This document shows positions 52,014 to 60,675 of a stretch of DNA of 64,000 bases, in pieces. The stretch is taken from the NCBI GenBank assembly GCA_026225275.1, contig JAMFSL010000061.1, forward strand, positions 1-64,000, in the 5' to 3' direction. The translations under genes and the position numbers were made by a program. Under the pieces are notes generated by a model. The model was not told the DNA's origin. It ran no database searches and saw only the letters and a list, made by a program, of their open reading frames with translations. Source of the DNA: Puia dinghuensis (GTDB taxonomy: Bacteria > Bacteroidota > Bacteroidia > Chitinophagales > Chitinophagaceae). Each line of letters begins with the position of its first letter. The stretch's first letter is position 1.

Positions 52014-54509
52014 ATGAGCACGGTAAGCAATCTTTATGGCATTCCCGCCAGTAGCCCGGAAGTAATGAAAATAGATGGATTCGACACATTGGCCTCTTTA
52101 GCGCTGGATATGCGCTGGTCATGGAATCACGATGCTGATGAACTTTGGAAGCAAATGGCGCCGGCCTTGTGGGAACAGACGCATAATCCCTGGCTGGTGG
52201 TGCAGAGTGTCTCGGGGGATGTGGTGAGGCGGTTGTTGTCGTCGCCTGGTTTCAGGGAAAAGCTGGATGCGATCCAGCAGCGGAAAGAGAGTGAGGATGC
52301 GCGGGCCGGGTGGTTCAGGACGACTTATCCCAATGCCGCGCTGAAGCATATAGCTTATTTCAGTATGGAATTCATGTTGGGAGAATCCCTGCCTATCTAT
52401 GTGGGCGGGCTGGGAAATGTGGCGGGTGATCAGCTGAAGTCGGCGAGCGACCTCGATGTTCCGGTGACGGGTATCGGATTGCTTTATCAGCGGGGTTATT
52501 TCAGACAGTCATTCAATGAATGGGGGGATCAGTTGGCCAGCAATCCTTTTAACGATCCGGGGCAGTTGCCGGTGAAGCCGTTGCGGCTTCCCAATGGGGA
52601 GTGGGTGCGGGTAGAGATCAATTTGCTGGGACGGTCTTTGTGGCTGCGGGCCTGGCAGGTTCAGACGGGCAGGGCGAGGCTGTTTTTGCTCGACAGCAAT
52701 GATGCGGCCAATGCGCCCGAGCACCGGGAGATCACCGGAGAGGTGTATGGCGGCGGACAGGAGACACGCATCATGCAGGAGATCGTATTGGGGATCGGCG
52801 GCTGGCAGCTGTTAAAGATAATGGGCATCTCGCCGGAGGTCTGTCATTTGAATGAGGGTCATGCTGCGTTCGTAGTGCTGGAGCGGGCCTATGACCTGAT
52901 GCAGGAGTTGAATGTGACTTTTGAAACAGCGTTGGCCATAACGCGCGCCGGCAATCTGTTTACGACGCATACCGCGGTAGCGGCGGGTTTCGATCATTTC
53001 GATCCCTGGCTGGTGAACAAATATTTTAGCGCTTATGCGGAGAAGCTGAGCATTTCCATGCATGATCTGATGGCGCTGGGGCGGCAGGATCCGGCCAATG
53101 AGCAGGAGCCTTTCAATATGGCCTATTTAGCTACCCATGGCAGCCACGGGATCAATGGGGTGAGTAAACTGCATGGAGAGGTCAGCCGTCATCTTTTCGA
53201 GCCGCTTTTCGACCGGTGGCCGACAGAAGAGATCCCGATCGGGCATGTCACTAACGGGGTACACACGCCGACATGGGAGTCCGAGCCGGCGGATGGGCTT
53301 TGGTCGGCTGCGGTGGGAGTGGACCGGTGGAAGGGGCCGACCGAATCGTTCGAAGACCGTATCCAGAAAGTGGAGGATGCGAAGATCTGGGAGATGCGTA
53401 ATGCTGCGCGTGCGGCTTTGCTGAATTATGTGAAAGAAAGTTCGGGGAATGTCTTTGCACCGGAGACGCTGACAATCGGTTTTGCAAGACGTTTCGTCCC
53501 CTATAAGCGGCCGGATCTTTTGTTGCTGGATGAGGACAGGCTGGTGCGGCTGCTGACTAACCATCATCAACCGGTTCAACTAGTCATTGCGGGCAAGGCG
53601 CCTCCTACGGATGGCGGCGGAAAGGATCTGATCAGGCGATGGATACAATTCATCAGGCGGACAGGGTTGACCCAGAATGTCGTATTCCTGCAAGACTATG
53701 ACATGTTGATGGCGGCGCATTTGGTAGGAGGCATGGATGTCTGGCTGAATACGCCGCAGCGGCCCTGGGAGGCCAGCGGCACGAGTGGCATGAAGGTGTT
53801 GGTGAATGGGGGCGTCAATCTGAGCGAGCTCGATGGCTGGTGGGTGGAAGCCTATAACCCGGAAGTAGGTTGGGCATTGGGAGATGGTCTCGAGCATGGC
53901 TTTGATCCCGCACTGGACAAGCGGGAATCGGAGGCGCTTTTCGATACGCTGGAAAAGCAGGTGATACCGGAATTCTATGATCGCAATGCTGCGGGTATTC
54001 CTGTTACGTGGATCAAGCGGGTGCGCAAGAGCATGGCGACGCTGACGTCGAATTTCTCTTCCGGCCGGACGGTCAGGGAGTACACGGAGAACTATTATCT
54101 GCCGGCGGCAGCGAACTATCTGGCCCGTGCGGCCCAAAGCGGAGAGTTGGGCAAGAAGATCGTGCAATGGAAACATGATGCCGATCTGCATTGGCCGCAT
54201 TTGGCATTCGGGTTATCGGAGGCGAGGACCGAAGACCGCCATATTTACGATGTGCAGGTTTTCCTGGGTGGTATGGATCAACAGTCCGTTGAGGTACAGC
54301 TGTTTGCCAAAGCGTTGCCCAACGGCGAGGTTTTCAAAACGGAGATGAAGGCCGTCGGTCCTGTGGATGGCAAAGAAGCAGGATGGACCTGGTATCATGG
54401 GGAAGCACCCGTGACCCGGCCGGTAGGAGACTTCACTGCCCGGGTCATTCCGCGCAGCGGGGATATCTCCGTCCCGCTGGAATATGGCCGGATATTATGG
54501 CAGCACTAA
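52014..54509 (+). CDS. glgP: Alpha-glucan phosphorylase (GT35, DUF3417 type)
   Basis: Releases glucose 1-phosphate from glycogen or malto-oligosaccharides. The 831-residue protein is the DUF3417-containing form: the N-terminal block LASLALDMRWSWNHDADELWKQ is typical. The catalytic part shows IAYFSMEFMLGESLPIYVGGLG, VCHLNEGHAAFVVLER, TIGFARRFVPYKRPDLLL and EASGTSGMKVLVNGGVNLSELDGWW, which holds the PLP lysine. The product is taken on by the phosphoglucomutase encoded just upstream. Cytoplasmic. Confidence 0.94.
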   Translation: MSTVSNLYGIPASSPEVMKIDGFDTLASLALDMRWSWNHDADELWKQMAPALWEQTHNPWLVVQSVSGDVVRRLLSSPGFREKLDAIQQRKESEDARAGWFRTTYPNAALKHIAYFSMEFMLGESLPIYVGGLGNVAGDQLKSASDLDVPVTGIGLLYQRGYFRQSFNEWGDQLASNPFNDPGQLPVKPLRLPNGEWVRVEINLLGRSLWLRAWQVQTGRARLFLLDSNDAANAPEHREITGEVYGGGQETRIMQEIVLGIGGWQLLKIMGISPEVCHLNEGHAAFVVLERAYDLMQELNVTFETALAITRAGNLFTTHTAVAAGFDHFDPWLVNKYFSAYAEKLSISMHDLMALGRQDPANEQEPFNMAYLATHGSHGINGVSKLHGEVSRHLFEPLFDRWPTEEIPIGHVTNGVHTPTWESEPADGLWSAAVGVDRWKGPTESFEDRIQKVEDAKIWEMRNAARAALLNYVKESSGNVFAPETLTIGFARRFVPYKRPDLLLLDEDRLVRLLTNHHQPVQLVIAGKAPPTDGGGKDLIRRWIQFIRRTGLTQNVVFLQDYDMLMAAHLVGGMDVWLNTPQRPWEASGTSGMKVLVNGGVNLSELDGWWVEAYNPEVGWALGDGLEHGFDPALDKRESEALFDTLEKQVIPEFYDRNAAGIPVTWIKRVRKSMATLTSNFSSGRTVREYTENYYLPAAANYLARAAQSGELGKKIVQWKHDADLHWPHLAFGLSEARTEDRHIYDVQVFLGGMDQQSVEVQLFAKALPNGEVFKTEMKAVGPVDGKEAGWTWYHGEAPVTRPVGDFTARVIPRSGDISVPLEYGRILWQH

Positions 54510-54572: not shown

Positions 54573-54580
54573 TAAATTTG
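54573..54580 (+). promoter_or_regulatory. Bacteroidota -7 promoter box (TAnnTTTG)
   Basis: TAAATTTG at 54573-54580 matches the Bacteroidota -7 consensus TAnnTTTG. It lies in a very AT-rich stretch in front of the small His/Cys protein gene. Transcription would start near 54587, which argues against the upstream GTG at 54547 being the start codon. No clear -33 TTTG is seen at the ideal distance. Confidence 0.5.
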
Positions 54581-54591
54581 TTAATTTGAAC

Positions 54592-54607
54592 GTTTCAGCG
54601 CTGAAAC
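54592..54607 (+). promoter_or_regulatory. Perfect 16-bp palindrome, candidate operator
   Basis: GTTTCAGCGCTGAAAC is a perfect inverted repeat with no spacer. It lies 11 bp after the -7 box, where a bound repressor would block RNA polymerase. No T-run follows, so it is not a terminator. The binding protein is unknown. Confidence 0.55.
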
Positions 54608-54654
54608 AGGATTCAACAGCGTTGCAATTTTCAAAAAAGGACTATCTTAGCCAT

Positions 54655-55014
54655 GTGAAGTTGCATTGGCACTTATTGTTCAGGAAAATAACAGCGCTTA
54701 TGCTGATGGCATTAATGTTATACATTAATGCTATTAAGCTTTTCCATACCCATCCGGGAGGTTATTCTTTCAACGTCGTTTGTGCTCATGTGTCACCTTC
54801 CGTTTCGCCCGAAAAGCAGGGGCAACATATCGTGCATGGGAATCATTGCGCGATATGCGATTTCCAATTGACGAGAGATGCAAACGTCGCAGCGGTCTGT
54901 ATAGATATTATTCCTATACGGCAGGCCGACGTATATCGTGCTACTGCCTTACAGGCGCATCTGCCTGTCTTTGATATCACTTCATCCGGCCGGGCGCCTC
55001 CTGCCACGGTGTAA
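54655..55014 (+). CDS. Small His/Cys-containing membrane or exported protein
   Basis: About 119 residues from the GTG at 54655. The N-terminal helix is strongly hydrophobic (LLFRKITALMLMALMLYINAI), then come FHTHPGG, HGNHCAICDFQLTRDA and a polar tail. The HTH and HxxHCxxC pattern could bind a metal. The frame is open from a GTG at 54547, but that codon would lie upstream of the promoter and palindrome. It precedes a TonB-dependent receptor gene by 92 bp on the same strand. I do not know a named family for it; similar proteins occur next to TonB receptors in Bacteroidota. Confidence 0.6.
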   Translation: MKLHWHLLFRKITALMLMALMLYINAIKLFHTHPGGYSFNVVCAHVSPSVSPEKQGQHIVHGNHCAICDFQLTRDANVAAVCIDIIPIRQADVYRATALQAHLPVFDITSSGRAPPATV

Positions 55015-55106
55015 ATCTCATTTCTCCTACCTTTCTATTGTTTGCATTGCCATTTTTTCATGATGACGCCGGGTCATTGTTATTTCAAAGTTTGTAAAAA
55101 CGAATA

Positions 55107-57653
55107 ATGCAAAAAATTTGCTTTTTAGTATTGTTGATGATGTCGGGTATTTGTCTGCAGGCTCAGTCTATCAGCGGGAATGTCACCGATTCTTCCAGTC
55201 ACAAGCCATTAGTGGGGGCTTCGGTCTACATTGCTCAGCTGAAAGCGGGCGCGATCACCGATAGTAGGGGGAATTATAAAATAGCCCGCGTGGCCAAAGG
55301 CAGTTATCATGTGGGGCTGGAGATGGTTGGTTATGGTGCGGTAGACAGCCTTGTCACGGTCGATGGGAATGTCACGCTGAATTTTACCACGGGGGTCGTT
55401 TCGGAAGTTCTGAAGGACGCTGTCATTACATCGTTGGGCAACGCTACCAGTCTACGGCGTGCACCGGTTCCGGTGACAGTCGTTTCACATGATATGCTGA
55501 CGCACCAGGCTTCCACCAATGTGATCGATGCCATCGCCACTCAACCGGGCATGGCGGCAGTCACGACCGGCCCGGGCGTTTCCAAACCCGAGATCAACGG
55601 ACTGGGTTATAACCGGGTATTGACCCTGATGGATGGGGAAAGACAAGAAGATTTTCAATGGGGAGATGAGCATGGGATCCTGATCGACCCTTATGCCGTC
55701 TATAGTGCGGAAATCATCAGGGGGCCTGCCTCTCTGCAGTATGGCGCCAATGCCGTTGCGGGAGTAGTGGCCTTCAAATCCGAACCTCTGCCCGAGACTC
55801 CCGGAACGATACAGGGCAGTTATCAGTCCGAGTACCAGACTAATAACGGGTTGATCGGAAATTCGCTGGATCTCTCCGGCAACAATCACGGATTGAAATG
55901 GGATGTAAGAGGCAGCTATGGAGCGGCGCACGCTTACTGGGATCCCAAGGATGGATATGTATGGGGGACTGCTTTTGTCCGGAGCAATGTGAGGGGTTCC
56001 ATCGAGATGGACAGGGATTGGGGGTATAGCCGGTTCTCATTCAGTGCGCTGCACCAGCAGATAGAGATCCCCGACGGTAACCGCGACAGCGCTTCGGGAC
56101 GATTCGAGTTCGACGTACCCCTGGGTGCGCAGTATGTCAATGGAAAGTACGTGCCCGGCAGCGGGAAGATCTACCCCTCCTTATCCAATTTTCTGTCTTA
56201 CAAGCCCAACATAGCGGGTTACCAGGTGCTGGATCATGATGAAGCCTGGTGGCAGAACAGTTTCAATGTCGGCCGCGGAAAGATCGGGGCGGATGTCGGT
56301 TATAGCCAGAGTATACGCCATGAGATAGACACCGGCACTGTAGGGCAGGAAAATATGGTCGTCCATGATATTCCTTACTCTTTCAAATACCAGACTGAAG
56401 GCGGCAACCTGGGCCTGAAGATCACTACAGGTATCAATGGGACTTACGAATTCGAGAACAACTATCCTGAGCCTCCGGCTCCATATGTCGGCGACTACGA
56501 GATCCCGAATTACCATCTTTTCGATGGAGGCGCCTATGGCATTGTGGAAAAAGATTTCCGCAACCTGACGCTCAGCGGCGGCCTGCGCTACGATCTGCGG
56601 ACGATCAAGGGACAGCCGATGTACCTGGCCAATTACGATATGACGAATCAGCAACAGGTTCCGGCGGGAACGCCCGGCGCCTACCAGCAATTCCCGTCGT
56701 TCAGTAACACGTATACAGGATATTCGGGAAGTTTAGGCGCCTCTTATCAGCTACCCGGACATTTCTATTTGAAAGCTAACGTTGCCAAAAGTTATCGGGC
56801 GCCTGCTATCAATGAACTAACCAGTAATGAGCTGGATCCGGCCAATATGTTCAAGCTGGGAGATCCTAACCTGAAGGCAGAAGAGGGATATGAGGTGGAT
56901 GCGGCGGTAGGAATGAATGGGAAGAACGTCGCTTTCGAAGTGGATGGATTTTACAACTACATCAACCATTTCATCTTTGCGGACCGGATCGAAAATGCCA
57001 GTGGCAGTGATTCTGTCCAACTGGGAGCTCCGGTCTACAAATACACCTCCAACAAGGCTATCATCGCAGGGCTTACGGCATTTCTGAAGATACACCCCGA
57101 GTCCGTCAAATGGCTGGAATGGGACAATGGATTCACCTATATCTATTCTTTTCTTCCCGGACAGACCGATTCCACGCAGCGTGTACCCTTTACGCCCGCT
57201 CCGCGGCTGACGTCGGACCTGCACTTCAAATTGGCCGATAGAGGGTCTTCGATACTGAAATCGGCCTATTTTCAGATTGGGCTGGCCCATTACTGGCCGC
57301 AGAATGAGATTTACAGCGCCTTGTATAACGAACTTCCTTCTTTCTCTTATACCTTATTCAATGCAGGGCTGGGAACCAGTTTTGTCAATCCAAAGACCAA
57401 ACGGGTGATCTGTTCGCTGTTTATCAACTGTACCAACCTGACGAATATCGCTTACGTCGATCATACGTCCCGGCCGCAGTATTTTTGGGCGTATAACGGC
57501 GTGGAAAACCCGACGAATTTCGGTTCTACTGCTGCCATCGTGACCAAACAAAGCGAAGGGATCTACAATATGGGAAGGAATATCGGCTTCAAGGTGATCT
57601 TCCCATTCGGCGGCCATTCCGTGTCGGATACCGAAATGCATGGAGCGTTCTGA
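55107..57653 (+). CDS. TonB-dependent receptor, metal-receptor-like plug
   Basis: An 848-residue outer-membrane receptor. Order of parts: a signal peptide (MQKICFLVLLMMSGICLQAQ), a carboxypeptidase-like regulatory domain (SHKPLVGASVYIAQLKAGAITDSRGNYKI), a plug (APVPVTVVSHDMLTHQASTNVIDAIATQPG; NRVLTLMDGERQEDFQWGDEHG; IIRGPASLQYGANAVAGVVAF) and a long barrel ending near the C-terminus. The plug with GDEHG and the IRGPASLQYG block looks more like ZnuD-type zinc or other metal receptors than SusC proteins, and no SusD partner is present. The ligand is inferred, not shown. First large gene of the unit that includes the tandem hydrolase and ceramidase-like genes. Confidence 0.85.
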   Translation: MQKICFLVLLMMSGICLQAQSISGNVTDSSSHKPLVGASVYIAQLKAGAITDSRGNYKIARVAKGSYHVGLEMVGYGAVDSLVTVDGNVTLNFTTGVVSEVLKDAVITSLGNATSLRRAPVPVTVVSHDMLTHQASTNVIDAIATQPGMAAVTTGPGVSKPEINGLGYNRVLTLMDGERQEDFQWGDEHGILIDPYAVYSAEIIRGPASLQYGANAVAGVVAFKSEPLPETPGTIQGSYQSEYQTNNGLIGNSLDLSGNNHGLKWDVRGSYGAAHAYWDPKDGYVWGTAFVRSNVRGSIEMDRDWGYSRFSFSALHQQIEIPDGNRDSASGRFEFDVPLGAQYVNGKYVPGSGKIYPSLSNFLSYKPNIAGYQVLDHDEAWWQNSFNVGRGKIGADVGYSQSIRHEIDTGTVGQENMVVHDIPYSFKYQTEGGNLGLKITTGINGTYEFENNYPEPPAPYVGDYEIPNYHLFDGGAYGIVEKDFRNLTLSGGLRYDLRTIKGQPMYLANYDMTNQQQVPAGTPGAYQQFPSFSNTYTGYSGSLGASYQLPGHFYLKANVAKSYRAPAINELTSNELDPANMFKLGDPNLKAEEGYEVDAAVGMNGKNVAFEVDGFYNYINHFIFADRIENASGSDSVQLGAPVYKYTSNKAIIAGLTAFLKIHPESVKWLEWDNGFTYIYSFLPGQTDSTQRVPFTPAPRLTSDLHFKLADRGSSILKSAYFQIGLAHYWPQNEIYSALYNELPSFSYTLFNAGLGTSFVNPKTKRVICSLFINCTNLTNIAYVDHTSRPQYFWAYNGVENPTNFGSTAAIVTKQSEGIYNMGRNIGFKVIFPFGGHSVSDTEMHGAF

Positions 57654-57677
57654 TGCGTGGGAACGTTTTTTTTGCTA

Positions 57678-57694
57678 CTTAATCCTGGATTAAG
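57678..57694 (+). promoter_or_regulatory. Palindrome between receptor and hydrolase genes
   Basis: CTTAATCC and GGATTAAG pair perfectly around a single T. A further TTAATCC lies at about 57701. The site is in the 86-bp gap between the receptor and the hydrolase genes. No T-run follows, so it may be an operator or an mRNA hairpin that sets the ratio of upstream and downstream products. Confidence 0.45.
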
Positions 57695-57739
57695 AGGTAA
57701 TTAATCCTTCCGTTAACCGGGGAAGGCTTCTTTTGTTGT

Positions 57740-59281
57740 ATGACGAAAAAAGCCATAGGGTTATTGCTTGCCCTTTTCTTCCTTACTATTTCTATTGTCC
57801 GGGCTCAATCACCCGGCTCCGTTTCCGCGCAGGATACCGCCGTGGCCTTCACGGGTGAGAAGACTGCCTGGCATGAAGGTTTCGATCGCTATGATTTCCT
57901 GATGGATGAACAGACGTTTGCCCTTACGCCCATCCGGGCGACGGCAGAGGAGCAGTTTGGAGCGGCTGCCTCGCCCAAAGGGAAAATCCGTTGTATTATC
58001 GTGGTCCCGCATAAACCGGCTCCGGGCAATCCCTGGTCCTGGCGGGGTTGCTATTGGGATCATGAACCTCAGGCGGAGGTCGAGTTGCTGAAGCGAGGGT
58101 TCTATATAGCTTTCATCATGTGCGATCCCGATCAGCATTGGGATGTATGGTATGCCTACCTGACGGGAAAGCACGGCCTCGCTCCCAAGCCTGCATTTTC
58201 CGGGATGAGCAAAGGAGGAGTGAACGAATTTGCCTGGGCGACGAATCATCCGGATAAGGTCTCCTGTATCTATGCAGACAATCCTGCTCTGTACCCGGAA
58301 AGCTTTACTAAACTGGGTGAACTGGCGAGTCATGACGTTCCGCTGCTGCATGTATGCGGCAGCTATGATTTTCTGCTGGAGCATCATACGCTGGTGGTGG
58401 AAGATATTTATCATCGGCTGGGGGGAAGAATCTCCGTGATGATCAAGGAAGGGCCTGGACATCATCCCCATTCGCTAAAAGATCCGGCTCTTATTGCCGG
58501 CTGGGTAGAAGATAATGTAAAGCCGGAAGGCGGAGTTGCCCCTGTGATGGCGGGGTTGACTTTTGAAAAATCTTATTACTACAGTTATAATAATAGCTAC
58601 AGGCTTTGTCAACCGGAAAATACATATGCCACATGTCGGGGACCGCTGTTCACCGATTGTTATGAACGCTATGACGTGAAAACATCTTCTACCTGGGGCA
58701 TTACCGGCATGACCATTATCCTGCCGAAGAAGGCGGCGCCCGGCCGTCCCTGGATATTCAAGGCCGATCGTGTCGGCCGGGAGGCGGAACCCGTAGATCT
58801 TGCTTTGCTGGCGAAAGGATTTACCATCGTAGCAGCGCCTGTCACCGAGCAGGCGGGGCCTGTACGTAAGCAGTGGGACGAGGTTTACCAATTGCTGACC
58901 AGCCAGGGATACTCCTCTAAGCCTGTCATGGAAGGTGAGGGGGCAGGTGGCGGAGAAGCATATTACTGGGCCATCGTTCATCCCGATCAAGTGTCGTGCA
59001 TCTACGCTGTGAATCCTGTGCTGCGGAGTCTGCAGGCAACGGCGCCATTGACCGACAGCCTTGCAGTGCTGGCGAAGGCCCATATTCCGATCCTCCATGT
59101 CTGCGGCAGCCTTGACCCCTGGTATGCTGACAATACCGTGGCAGTGGAGAAAAAATACCGGCAGTCAGGCGGTCACATGAAAGTGCTGGTGAAAGCAGGA
59201 GCGGGACATTTCGATGCGCTGCCGGCCGAACCGGCGCCGATTATAAATTTTATTATAGAGAGCCAAAAACCTGCACCATGA
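57740..59281 (+). CDS. Secreted protein with two tandem alpha/beta-hydrolase domains
   Basis: A 513-residue exported protein (signal peptide MTKKAIGLLLALFFLTISIVRAQ). It is an internal duplication. Domain 1 (about 40-260) has the nucleophile elbow SGMSKGG with Ser157, acid Asp210 (HVCGSYD) and His241. Domain 2 (about 285-510) repeats the fold (WAIVHPDQVSCIYAVNP against WATNHPDKVSCIYADNP; HVCGSLDPWYADNT against HVCGSYDFLLEHHT). Its elbow reads GEGAGG, with Gly401 in place of the Ser, so it is probably non-catalytic. Asp459 and His490 remain. Its stop overlaps the ceramidase-like start (ATGA). Substrate unknown. Confidence 0.72.
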   Translation: MTKKAIGLLLALFFLTISIVRAQSPGSVSAQDTAVAFTGEKTAWHEGFDRYDFLMDEQTFALTPIRATAEEQFGAAASPKGKIRCIIVVPHKPAPGNPWSWRGCYWDHEPQAEVELLKRGFYIAFIMCDPDQHWDVWYAYLTGKHGLAPKPAFSGMSKGGVNEFAWATNHPDKVSCIYADNPALYPESFTKLGELASHDVPLLHVCGSYDFLLEHHTLVVEDIYHRLGGRISVMIKEGPGHHPHSLKDPALIAGWVEDNVKPEGGVAPVMAGLTFEKSYYYSYNNSYRLCQPENTYATCRGPLFTDCYERYDVKTSSTWGITGMTIILPKKAAPGRPWIFKADRVGREAEPVDLALLAKGFTIVAAPVTEQAGPVRKQWDEVYQLLTSQGYSSKPVMEGEGAGGGEAYYWAIVHPDQVSCIYAVNPVLRSLQATAPLTDSLAVLAKAHIPILHVCGSLDPWYADNTVAVEKKYRQSGGHMKVLVKAGAGHFDALPAEPAPIINFIIESQKPAP

Positions 59282-60675
59282 AAATACCGATCCGATTGCT
59301 GTTATTCTTGGCCGGGCTGATCGTTGCGGGGGGGATCCGGGCGCAGCAGCTTCGTAACTCATTGCTGGCGGGCGCCTCTAAAATCAATATTACGCCCCGT
59401 ACGGACGAAGCTATTCATGATTCCATATATGCCCGGGTATTGGTGCTGGATGCGGATGGTATCCGGCTGGCATTCGTCACGGTGGATCTGGCCGTATTCA
59501 CCAGTGACAGGATCGAGAGGGTCTGCAAAGAAAAATACGGGATCACCCAGCTGATCCTTTGTTCCTCGCATAATCACTCCGAGCCGCAGCCCGGCGGGAA
59601 AAGATCGTTTCAGGCCGGTAATCCTTATACGGCCTTTTATGAAGACCAGATCATCAAAGCAGTGGGTGAATCGGTTGCTCATCTTTTTGCCGCCCGCCTT
59701 TCGGCGGGGAGGGCGACATTCCCCCAGTTGGGTTTCAACCGGCTGGTCCCCAGGAAGGATGGGCATGCCCGGGAGTCGTGGTTCGGGGATGACGAATACA
59801 CCAGTGAAAACCCTGAGCGCATACCTTTCGGACCTGTCGATCCGGAAGTGGGGGTATTGAGGATCGATGATGCAACGGGTCAGGCGCGGGCGATCGTGAT
59901 GAACTACGCTTGTCATGCGGACATCGTCTGCTTTAACTATGCTGTCAGCGCGGATTACCCTGGCGTCGCCTGTCGCAAGGTGGAGGAGGCCTTTGGAGGT
60001 GGCGTCAATTGCCTGTTTGTGCAGGGGGCAGGAGGGAATATCGAATCTTTGCAGATCAGCTCGCGCCGTAAAGGGCCGGACGATCCCTTTCAGACTAATT
60101 ATCTGCCGATGGAGAGGACAGGAGAGTTGTTGGCGGATCAGGTGATCAGGCTGGCGAAGAGGCTGGAGATGGGGGCAGAGGCTGCTGCCAGGGCGATGCC
60201 GGGTTGGTCGACACCGGGCGGCGACACTCCGGTGCTGCGGTATATGGAAGATTCGCTGCATTTCACGGGCCGCTTCAACAAAAAGCTGGACCTCAATGTC
60301 CATCTTTCCACGATCATCCTCAATAATACCATAGCTATTGCCGTGTGTCCCGGCGAGTTGTTCGTGCAATTACAGCTTGACTGGAAGCAGAAGATGGACC
60401 TGGCGGGGGTGCAACCTTTTCTATTCGGCTATAGCTGGAGCCAGGGAAACTGGCCGGGATATGTTGCTGACGTGCGGAGCGCTGCATTGGGCGGATATGG
60501 GGCCGATCAGGGTGGTGATTTGATCGAGGTGGGCGCGGGTGAGGCGATCGTGACAAGGCAACTGGCCGATTTTTATCGTCTTAACGGGTTGATGCGGGCT
60601 CAGCCGGGACCTACGGGATTCAAATCCGGCGCGCAATGGATCGTCAGGCCATTTGATCCGGCAAAAGACAAGTAA
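59278..60675 (+). CDS. Neutral/alkaline ceramidase-like hydrolase
   Basis: A 465-residue exported protein (signal peptide MKIPIRLLLFLAGLIVAGGIRAQ). It matches the N-terminal domain of neutral/alkaline non-lysosomal ceramidases: LLAGASKINITPRT, ARVLVLDADGIRLAFVTVDLAVF, and LCSSHNHSEPQPGG with His98 and His100 as likely zinc ligands. Also NYACHADIVCFNYAVSADYPG and CLFVQGAGGNIESL. Ceramidases cleave the amide bond of sphingolipids, which Bacteroidota make, but many members of this fold act on other amides, so the substrate is open. It is translationally coupled to the tandem hydrolase gene. Confidence 0.85.
   Translation: MKIPIRLLLFLAGLIVAGGIRAQQLRNSLLAGASKINITPRTDEAIHDSIYARVLVLDADGIRLAFVTVDLAVFTSDRIERVCKEKYGITQLILCSSHNHSEPQPGGKRSFQAGNPYTAFYEDQIIKAVGESVAHLFAARLSAGRATFPQLGFNRLVPRKDGHARESWFGDDEYTSENPERIPFGPVDPEVGVLRIDDATGQARAIVMNYACHADIVCFNYAVSADYPGVACRKVEEAFGGGVNCLFVQGAGGNIESLQISSRRKGPDDPFQTNYLPMERTGELLADQVIRLAKRLEMGAEAAARAMPGWSTPGGDTPVLRYMEDSLHFTGRFNKKLDLNVHLSTIILNNTIAIAVCPGELFVQLQLDWKQKMDLAGVQPFLFGYSWSQGNWPGYVADVRSAALGGYGADQGGDLIEVGAGEAIVTRQLADFYRLNGLMRAQPGPTGFKSGAQWIVRPFDPAKDK

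Follow-up and report, generated by a model that had tools for sequence, protein, structure and literature searches.

A putative metal-sensing leader and TonB-dependent receptor followed by a probable carbohydrate-type enzyme pair in Puia dinghuensis

Organization of the locus

We analysed 64,000 nucleotides of Puia dinghuensis DNA (NCBI GenBank assembly GCA_026225275.1, contig JAMFSL010000061.1, positions 1 to 64,000 of the forward strand), called the window below, in which a block at 54,573 to 60,675 encodes a small His/Cys protein, a TonB-dependent receptor, a tandem alpha/beta hydrolase and a ceramidase-fold protein (Table 1). An earlier note made from the letters alone had pointed to four co-oriented genes with short gaps and an ATGA overlap behind a perfect 16-bp palindrome. 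The coordinates of the open reading frames (ORFs) bear this out: the gaps are 92 bp between the first gene and the receptor and 86 bp between receptor and hydrolase, the hydrolase and ceramidase-fold genes overlap by ATGA at 59278-59281, and the palindrome lies ahead of the genes. In Pfam the second gene product is a TonB receptor with a CarboxypepD_reg-like domain. The matches of the two enzymes, to an alpha/beta hydrolase and to Ceramidase_alk, respectively, are weak, and that of the small protein to DUF2946 stays below the threshold. The closest counterpart of the block is locus L066 of the sister metagenome-assembled genome palsa_949, in which the receptor is 91%, the small protein 74% and the ceramidase-fold protein 87% identical. 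It is rather likely, in our judgement, that the block consists of two modules, namely a metal-sensing leader with its receptor (54655-57653) and an enzyme pair that comes from sugar-polymer gene surroundings (57740-60675).

Table 1. Features of the locus, in coordinates of the window
Feature	Position	Strand	Basis or remark
Perfect 16-bp palindrome GTTTCAGCGCTGAAAC	54592..54607	.	only exact copy in the genome; elsewhere in L066 alone
Conserved promoter-like stretch CAACAGCGTTG (54614-54624) ... TATCTTAG (54643-54650)	54614..54650	+	better conserved than the -7-like TAAATTTG
Putative CruR-type leader protein, 119 aa from GTG	54655..55014	+	ORF open from 54547; GTG start provisional
Codons of the putative metal-site motif CAIC, residues 65-68	54847..54858	+	numbering on the window protein
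Codons of the RAPP motif, residues 113-116	54991..55002	+	followed by ATV and the stop
Leader-receptor intergenic region	55015..55106	+	very similar in L066; without significant fold
TonB-dependent receptor: CarboxypepD_reg-like N-terminal domain, plug, barrel	55107..57653	+	Pfam/NCBIfam, structures, tree
Junction between modules	57654..57739	+	a GH3 gene sits here in L066, between receptor and hydrolase
Hydrolase gene start, signal peptide (by eye), deletion scar	57740..57811	+	homologous to the start of the L066 GH3 gene
Tandem alpha/beta hydrolase	57740..59281	+	domain 1 Ser157, Asp210, His; domain 2 Gly/Ala at the place of the nucleophile
Ceramidase-fold protein	59278..60675	+	zinc-site residues conserved, without catalytic serine; alignment, AlphaFold, structure match

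The first gene as a candidate leader

The small protein fits a regulatory leader best, rather than the scavenging component that it had been taken for. Its CAIC motif stands 44 residues ahead of RAPP, the N-terminus carries a hydrophobic stretch (by eye), and the HTH and CAIC of the sequence are possible metal ligands. The match to PF11162 (DUF2946) lies below the cut-off (20.3 bits, cut-off 23.7, E 9.5e-4). Comparison with L066 gives 19, 14 and 43 changes at codon positions 1, 2 and 3, respectively, and because most of them fall on third positions the leader is taken to be translated.

The nearest described system is CruR (bp2923) of Bordetella pertussis, a DUF2946 family member and the first gene of its operon, for which passages of PMC9426467 describe that the CXXC of the nascent chain senses copper, that a stall occurs at the C-terminal RAPP, and that a TonB transporter gene is governed through Rho termination; passages of PMC12992588 report the arrest as demonstrated in vitro. 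The window leader resembles CruR in its CXXC, in RAPP near the C-terminus, in its hydrophobic N-terminus, in being the first gene before a TonB-dependent transporter, and in a spacing of 44 compared with the 45 conserved in CruR (first Cys 48 residues before the motif by the published numbering; passages of PMC9426467). It differs in falling below the Pfam cut-off, in an intergenic region of 92 bp as against 162, in a receptor followed by hydrolase and ceramidase-fold genes instead of PepSY_TM, and in having relatives with a varied metal site. The CutF-like proteins are similar in being small exported proteins with a metal site and a C-terminal PP ahead of metal genes, but the copper response of CutF is the opposite; as excerpts of PMC9973294 present it, their catalogue includes many Bacteroidota, counts TonB-like proteins among the commonest neighbours and keeps only proteins below 150 aa.

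By analogy, the 119-aa protein would be a nascent-chain sensor of the CruR/CutF kind. During its synthesis the C-terminal RAPP would stall the ribosome, and metal (most likely copper) at CAIC would relieve the stall and lead to a Rho-dependent stop of transcription ahead of the receptor gene, as published for CruR. As metal at CAIC would thus end transcription before the receptor gene, the receptor is proposed to be produced when metal is scarce.

Leader-like genes across the receptor family

The receptor was found in 142 of 195 sampled family genomes at E 1e-60. We examined 93 receptor loci, window included (33 and a further 60 taken down the match list, passing over entries that had a stop inside the gene or too short a contig ahead of it), of which 92 had enough upstream sequence, L155 being left out for too little. 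A leader was counted when an ORF of at least 60 aa had its stop between 320 nt before and 40 nt after the receptor start and PP within its last 18 residues. Such a leader-like ORF lies upstream of 73 of the 92 related receptors, in Chitinophagaceae-type genomes. Control counts were 3/92 with the interval moved upstream by 400 nt, 2/92 with a more upstream interval on the opposite strand, and 1/92 with the original interval on the opposite strand. PP occurs near the end in 32 of 714 background ORFs; SusC-type receptors are preceded by a leader-like ORF in 1 of 13 cases, and ORFs above 250 aa in general in 33 of 500.

On dividing the 92 loci by leader type, 57 have [RK][AG]PP, 13 PPP, 3 HPP and 19 none. 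Among the 57, PP is invariant and the R of the motif nearly so, and a Cys is present 46-48 residues before the motif in every case (57/57), compared with a mean of 4.5 and a maximum of 12/57 in 2000 permutations, a result which is not a probability as the 57 rows are related. The metal site itself varies, 20 leaders having CxC, 14 His-Cys, 14 a lone Cys and 9 CxxC. Identity to the window leader is 8-39% outside L066. Leader type follows the receptor tree with 9 changes (34 labelled of 42 rows; L152 was left out because its receptor ORF is short), and 200 shuffles required at least 17. Outside this family but within the phylum, 5 of 11 receptor loci have leaders of these types and 6 have none, with CxxC and RGPP or RAPP in L235, L240, L241 and L242, and PPP in L230.

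The PPP leaders (166-190 aa, median 182), which precede metal-type TonB receptors, share a hydrophobic start, conserved Asp/Glu within ExWYxGxLYDV...D..E, and PPP near the end (alignment A6); Pfam gave nothing convincing for them, only isolated single-member matches at E 0.02-0.09. One example is L003:4072-4641 (minus) in the same genome as the window (G000:C143), before a receptor paralogue of 40% identity, and 12 other loci are in the same alignment. The HPP leaders, 128-130 aa with a Cys-rich C-x-G-K/R-C stretch, are L002:3947-4333 (minus), L137:987-1376 and L170:1029-1412; they precede receptors close to that of the window, and the one at L002 precedes an own-genome paralogue 57% identical to it. 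The two close receptor paralogues of the same genome thus have leader types unlike that of the window, HPP (L002) and PPP (L003).

Receptor specificity and the sensed metal

The receptor is probably one for a metal, and the metal-linked receptor unit of the earlier note is likely in that sense. The narrower description as ZnuD-like did not hold, since NF038289 scored 63 bits with a cut-off of 950 and, of the 22 NCBIfam models matched, the cut-off of none was reached. Likeness to ZnuD lies in the plug region, for which ZnuD is the top match among solved structures. Behind 21 of the receptors the downstream genes did not hint at a metal, no domain search having been made on those genes. Copper is the metal that we prefer for leader and receptor, by analogy with CruR.

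Several observations weigh against this reading of leader and receptor. No leader-type ORF is found upstream of 19 of the 92 receptors. CxC, His-Cys or a lone Cys replace CxxC in most leaders, and therefore the sensed metal may differ; a DUF2946 match at E up to 0.1 is found in just 4 of the 57. The TonB copper receptor model TIGR01778 gave 41.7 bits (cut-off 472), and no copper-receptor model was reached. The RNA between leader and receptor showed no significant fold (z -0.42), and the Rfam scan for an attenuation or riboswitch family returned a single chance match (E 0.48), so that both a structured attenuator and a riboswitch were rejected. In Caulobacter, two DUF2946 genes are among the expression changes of the zinc regulon, according to passages of PMC4176598, and the passages of PMC12992588 state that, in Bacteroidota, no RAPP/RGPP leaders were found for copper-related genes. 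It may be added that CrtA copper receptors are mostly from beta- and gamma-proteobacteria (passages of PMC12914433).

These points bear on whether the receptor instead takes up heme or some other chelated metal (iron, zinc, nickel), with the leader responding to that metal in place of copper, which we regard as possible though rather unlikely. Its best NCBIfam match is the heme receptor TIGR01785, the heme receptors PhuR and ShuA are among the PDB matches, and besides the lack of copper-related RAPP/RGPP leaders just mentioned for Bacteroidota, the authors of PMC9973294 think, in the part consulted here, that some CutF-like proteins bind nickel or cobalt. However, the TIGR01785 score (130 bits) is far below its cut-off of 317, and the CxxC-RAPP leader that has been worked out experimentally, CruR, senses copper.

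If the small protein were instead a mature chaperone, anchored in the membrane and passing metal to the receptor or to TonB, this would agree with its hydrophobic N-terminal segment, with HTH and CAIC as possible ligands and with translation under selection. We hold it to be clearly unlikely, as the distance from Cys to [RK][AG]PP is fixed despite the low identity among the leaders outside L066, and PP stands near the C-terminus in three dissimilar leader types, both of which are better explained by arrest.

Gene neighbourhood of the enzyme pair

Ceramidase-fold genes were collected by a scan of genome contigs, giving 70 loci, mostly from Bacteroidota with a few from Verrucomicrobia, Planctomycetes and Ignavibacteria. 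The enzyme ORF was not found in three of them (L096, L110, L126), and the neighbourhood counts, obtained by tblastn, cover all 70; as controls we used 20 stretches of 20 kb from five enzyme-carrying genomes, the enzyme loci averaging below 15 kb. At least one carbohydrate-enzyme marker (GH families, DUF5703, GtaA or AXE1) is present in 56 of the 70 loci as against 1 of 20 controls, and at least two in 41 as against none, the neighbouring gene types being GH92/GH95/GH43/GH99-like/GH3/GH2. Hydrolase homologues, single-domain ones included, occur in 17/70 and a protein called 'mid' in 15/70, with 0/20 controls for each. The two-domain hydrolase is directly upstream of the enzyme in L066, L067, L068, L074, L083, L119 and L132, and is fused to mid in L128. 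The carbohydrate origin is weakened by 10 of the 70 loci having no marker gene, by SusC/SusD not being enriched near the enzyme (20/70 loci, 7/20 controls), and by marker references that partly came from the very enzyme loci counted, a choice that makes matches there more likely.

The pair is rare: phylum-wide searches for the enzymes at E 1e-60 matched only the genome of the window among 395. Within the family, close relatives of the ceramidase-fold protein with at least 61% identity are present in 6 of 195 genomes, own included. The two-domain hydrolase is matched over its full length in 2 of the 195, each time adjoining or fused to the ceramidase-fold protein.

Some further observations belong here. 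At L042:7737-11972 both hydrolase domains, mid and the ceramidase-fold domain are joined in a single ORF of 1411 aa. Mid itself, present at L073:8603-9958 and in 14 more loci, is about 360-450 aa long and TIM-barrel-like (by eye only); for the copy in L073 neither a Pfam match nor a credible PDB sequence match was obtained. In L043:522-5341 (minus; G055) a gene for a small Cys-containing protein and three more genes, one of which has a CDICGCG N-terminal motif, lie behind the ceramidase-fold gene in the same orientation; by eye these genes have a metal-related look.

How the two modules came together

A conserved co-occurrence of the four genes, which the earlier note expected of relatives, was not observed. 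We checked 75 enzyme loci for receptor and leader (the 70 above and 5 stretches from family genomes, many contigs being short), and beside the window only L066 has leader and close receptor together with the enzymes; in four further loci there is no more than a distant receptor match (23-25% identity). Receptor and hydrolase of L066 are separated by a GH3 gene. Window positions 57733-57811, which include about the first 72 bases of the hydrolase gene, are 79% identical to the start of this GH3 gene, and the match to the L066 hydrolase begins only at 57825. The order GH3-hydrolase-enzyme is also present in L068, and because it recurs there, loss of GH3 in the window is favoured over gain in L066. 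A deletion in the window lineage removed the body of the GH3 gene and fused its signal peptide to the hydrolase. The enzyme genes would then be the remainder of a carbohydrate cassette, GH3-hydrolase-ceramidase-fold protein, that was placed behind the receptor in this lineage. They recur in carbohydrate loci elsewhere, but the window retains just two enzyme genes, behind a receptor of another type. The DNA separating receptor and hydrolase (window 57670-57739) also contains a short inverted repeat, CTTAATCC-T-GGATTAAG, which is partly kept in L066.

The separation into modules has to be set against their shared orientation in two genomes, and a functional link between them in the window lineage is possible. 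The two modules may be co-transcribed. A single zinc or amide scavenging operon, in which a metal protein, a ZnuD-like receptor and two periplasmic amidases cooperate, could account for the co-oriented genes with short gaps, for the same order in L066 apart from the GH3 gene, and for ZnuD as the top structure match. We rejected it as very unlikely because the neighbourhood is not conserved (L066 being the only other such set among 75 loci), the ZnuD model is not reached, the enzymes usually stand beside carbohydrate-enzyme genes, and the small protein has the signature of a leader.

The two enzymes

The AlphaFold model of the ceramidase-fold protein (mean pLDDT 88.1) superposes on Pseudomonas ceramidase 2zws with Z 35.1 over 352 residues at 2.7 A, so that the fold proposed in the earlier note stands. 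The catalytic serine is absent: among 52 aligned sequences, the residue at the Ser of AGNLSPN in 2zws, which we take to be the catalytic nucleophile, is Glu in 31, Ala in 21 and Ser in none. His98, His213, Glu360 and Tyr395 are conserved in 52/52. The two His are aligned with zinc ligands of 2zws, whereas Glu360 and Tyr395 lie outside the aligned stretch and presumably complete the zinc site by an equivalence that we assume. We regard the protein as a probable zinc hydrolase that has come to work without the ceramidase serine, and amide cleavage by it, as once suggested, is disfavoured by this loss and by the mostly carbohydrate-enzyme surroundings. Compared with the neutral ceramidases (2zws, 4wgk; PF04734), it is also shorter. 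Sequence searches of solved structures with the single enzymes gave no credible match, and among the literature matches listed, none indicated by its title a carbohydrate enzyme with a ceramidase fold. A true ceramidase acting on sphingolipids is most unlikely and was rejected: fold, the two His ligands and PF04734 matches in 52/52 sequences at E up to 0.01 would suit it, but the serine is replaced throughout, the window protein scores 24.1 with a Pfam cut-off of 32.1, and the neighbours are carbohydrate enzymes.

In the hydrolase, domain 1 has Ser157, Asp210 and His241/242/244 conserved in 13/13 sequences, the catalytic His presumably being one of these three. The matching turn of domain 2 (domains aligned by eye) has Gly in 12/13 and Ala in 1/13, with a Ser one position later in L100, and by sequence this domain is degenerate. 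The AlphaFold model (pLDDT 84.0) matches generic alpha/beta hydrolases. We consider the protein to be probably a carbohydrate esterase.

Palindrome, promoter-like stretches and flanking genes

When the 146 bp upstream were shuffled 2000 times, 0.65% of the shuffles contained a palindrome of at least 16 bp, but the 64-kb window contains three palindromes of this length. In the 900 nt upstream of the 92 related receptors it is exact in the window, has 1 mismatch in L066 and 4 mismatches in the next best case, so that it is not shared by the other receptors examined. Its presence in L066 says little because the flanking DNA there is also largely identical. Judged from these upstream regions, it is probably not a conserved operator, and this candidate was rejected.

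The -7-like TAAATTTG at 54573-54580, identified with what we take to be the Bacteroidota -7 consensus, reads TAAATTTC in L066. The promoter-like stretch of Table 1 has its counterparts in TATCTTCG in L066 and TATTTTCG in L136 (compared by eye); CAACAGCGTTG and a TATxTTxG box are retained at L136, whose receptor is 73% identical. Upstream of the block lies a phosphorylase-family gene (52014-54509), and downstream, on the minus strand, are a CarboxypepD_reg-like protein and MqnE; neither flank was counted as part of the unit.

Implications

Arrest-peptide leaders ahead of TonB genes had been surveyed by motif and worked out in one Bordetella operon (passages of PMC12992588 and PMC9426467, respectively). 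The survey describes RAPP/RGPP near the end of small exported proteins before TonB-related genes throughout Gram-negative bacteria, which agrees with the leaders described here; its passages give no fixed metal-site distance, and PPP, HPP, KGPP and KAPP were not among its search motifs. Here, leader-like ORFs are found in most sampled members of one receptor family. We propose, as a speculation of doubtful standing, that such sensors are a general switch for the metal-type TonB receptors of Bacteroidota, with enzymes captured in the window lineage and with three sensor types: CruR-like leaders whose metal site is rewritten at one constant distance from [RK][AG]PP, a Cys-rich HPP type and a ~182-aa PPP type. 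Being longer than the 150-aa limit of the CutF-like catalogue, the PPP type would represent a second kind of leader. Since the Cys site changes while its distance to the stall motif stays the same, it can be tested directly whether this site sets the sensed metal. The serine-less ceramidase-fold family, paired or fused with an esterase-like protein near carbohydrate-enzyme genes, makes a good candidate for a new activity in carbohydrate processing.

It is a tentative and on balance improbable picture that a metal-type switch captured glycan-cleaving enzymes in the window lineage, alongside several dissimilar proline-arrest sensors across the Bacteroidota metal-type receptors. If true, copper or another metal bound to polysaccharides would be freed and imported under metal scarcity.

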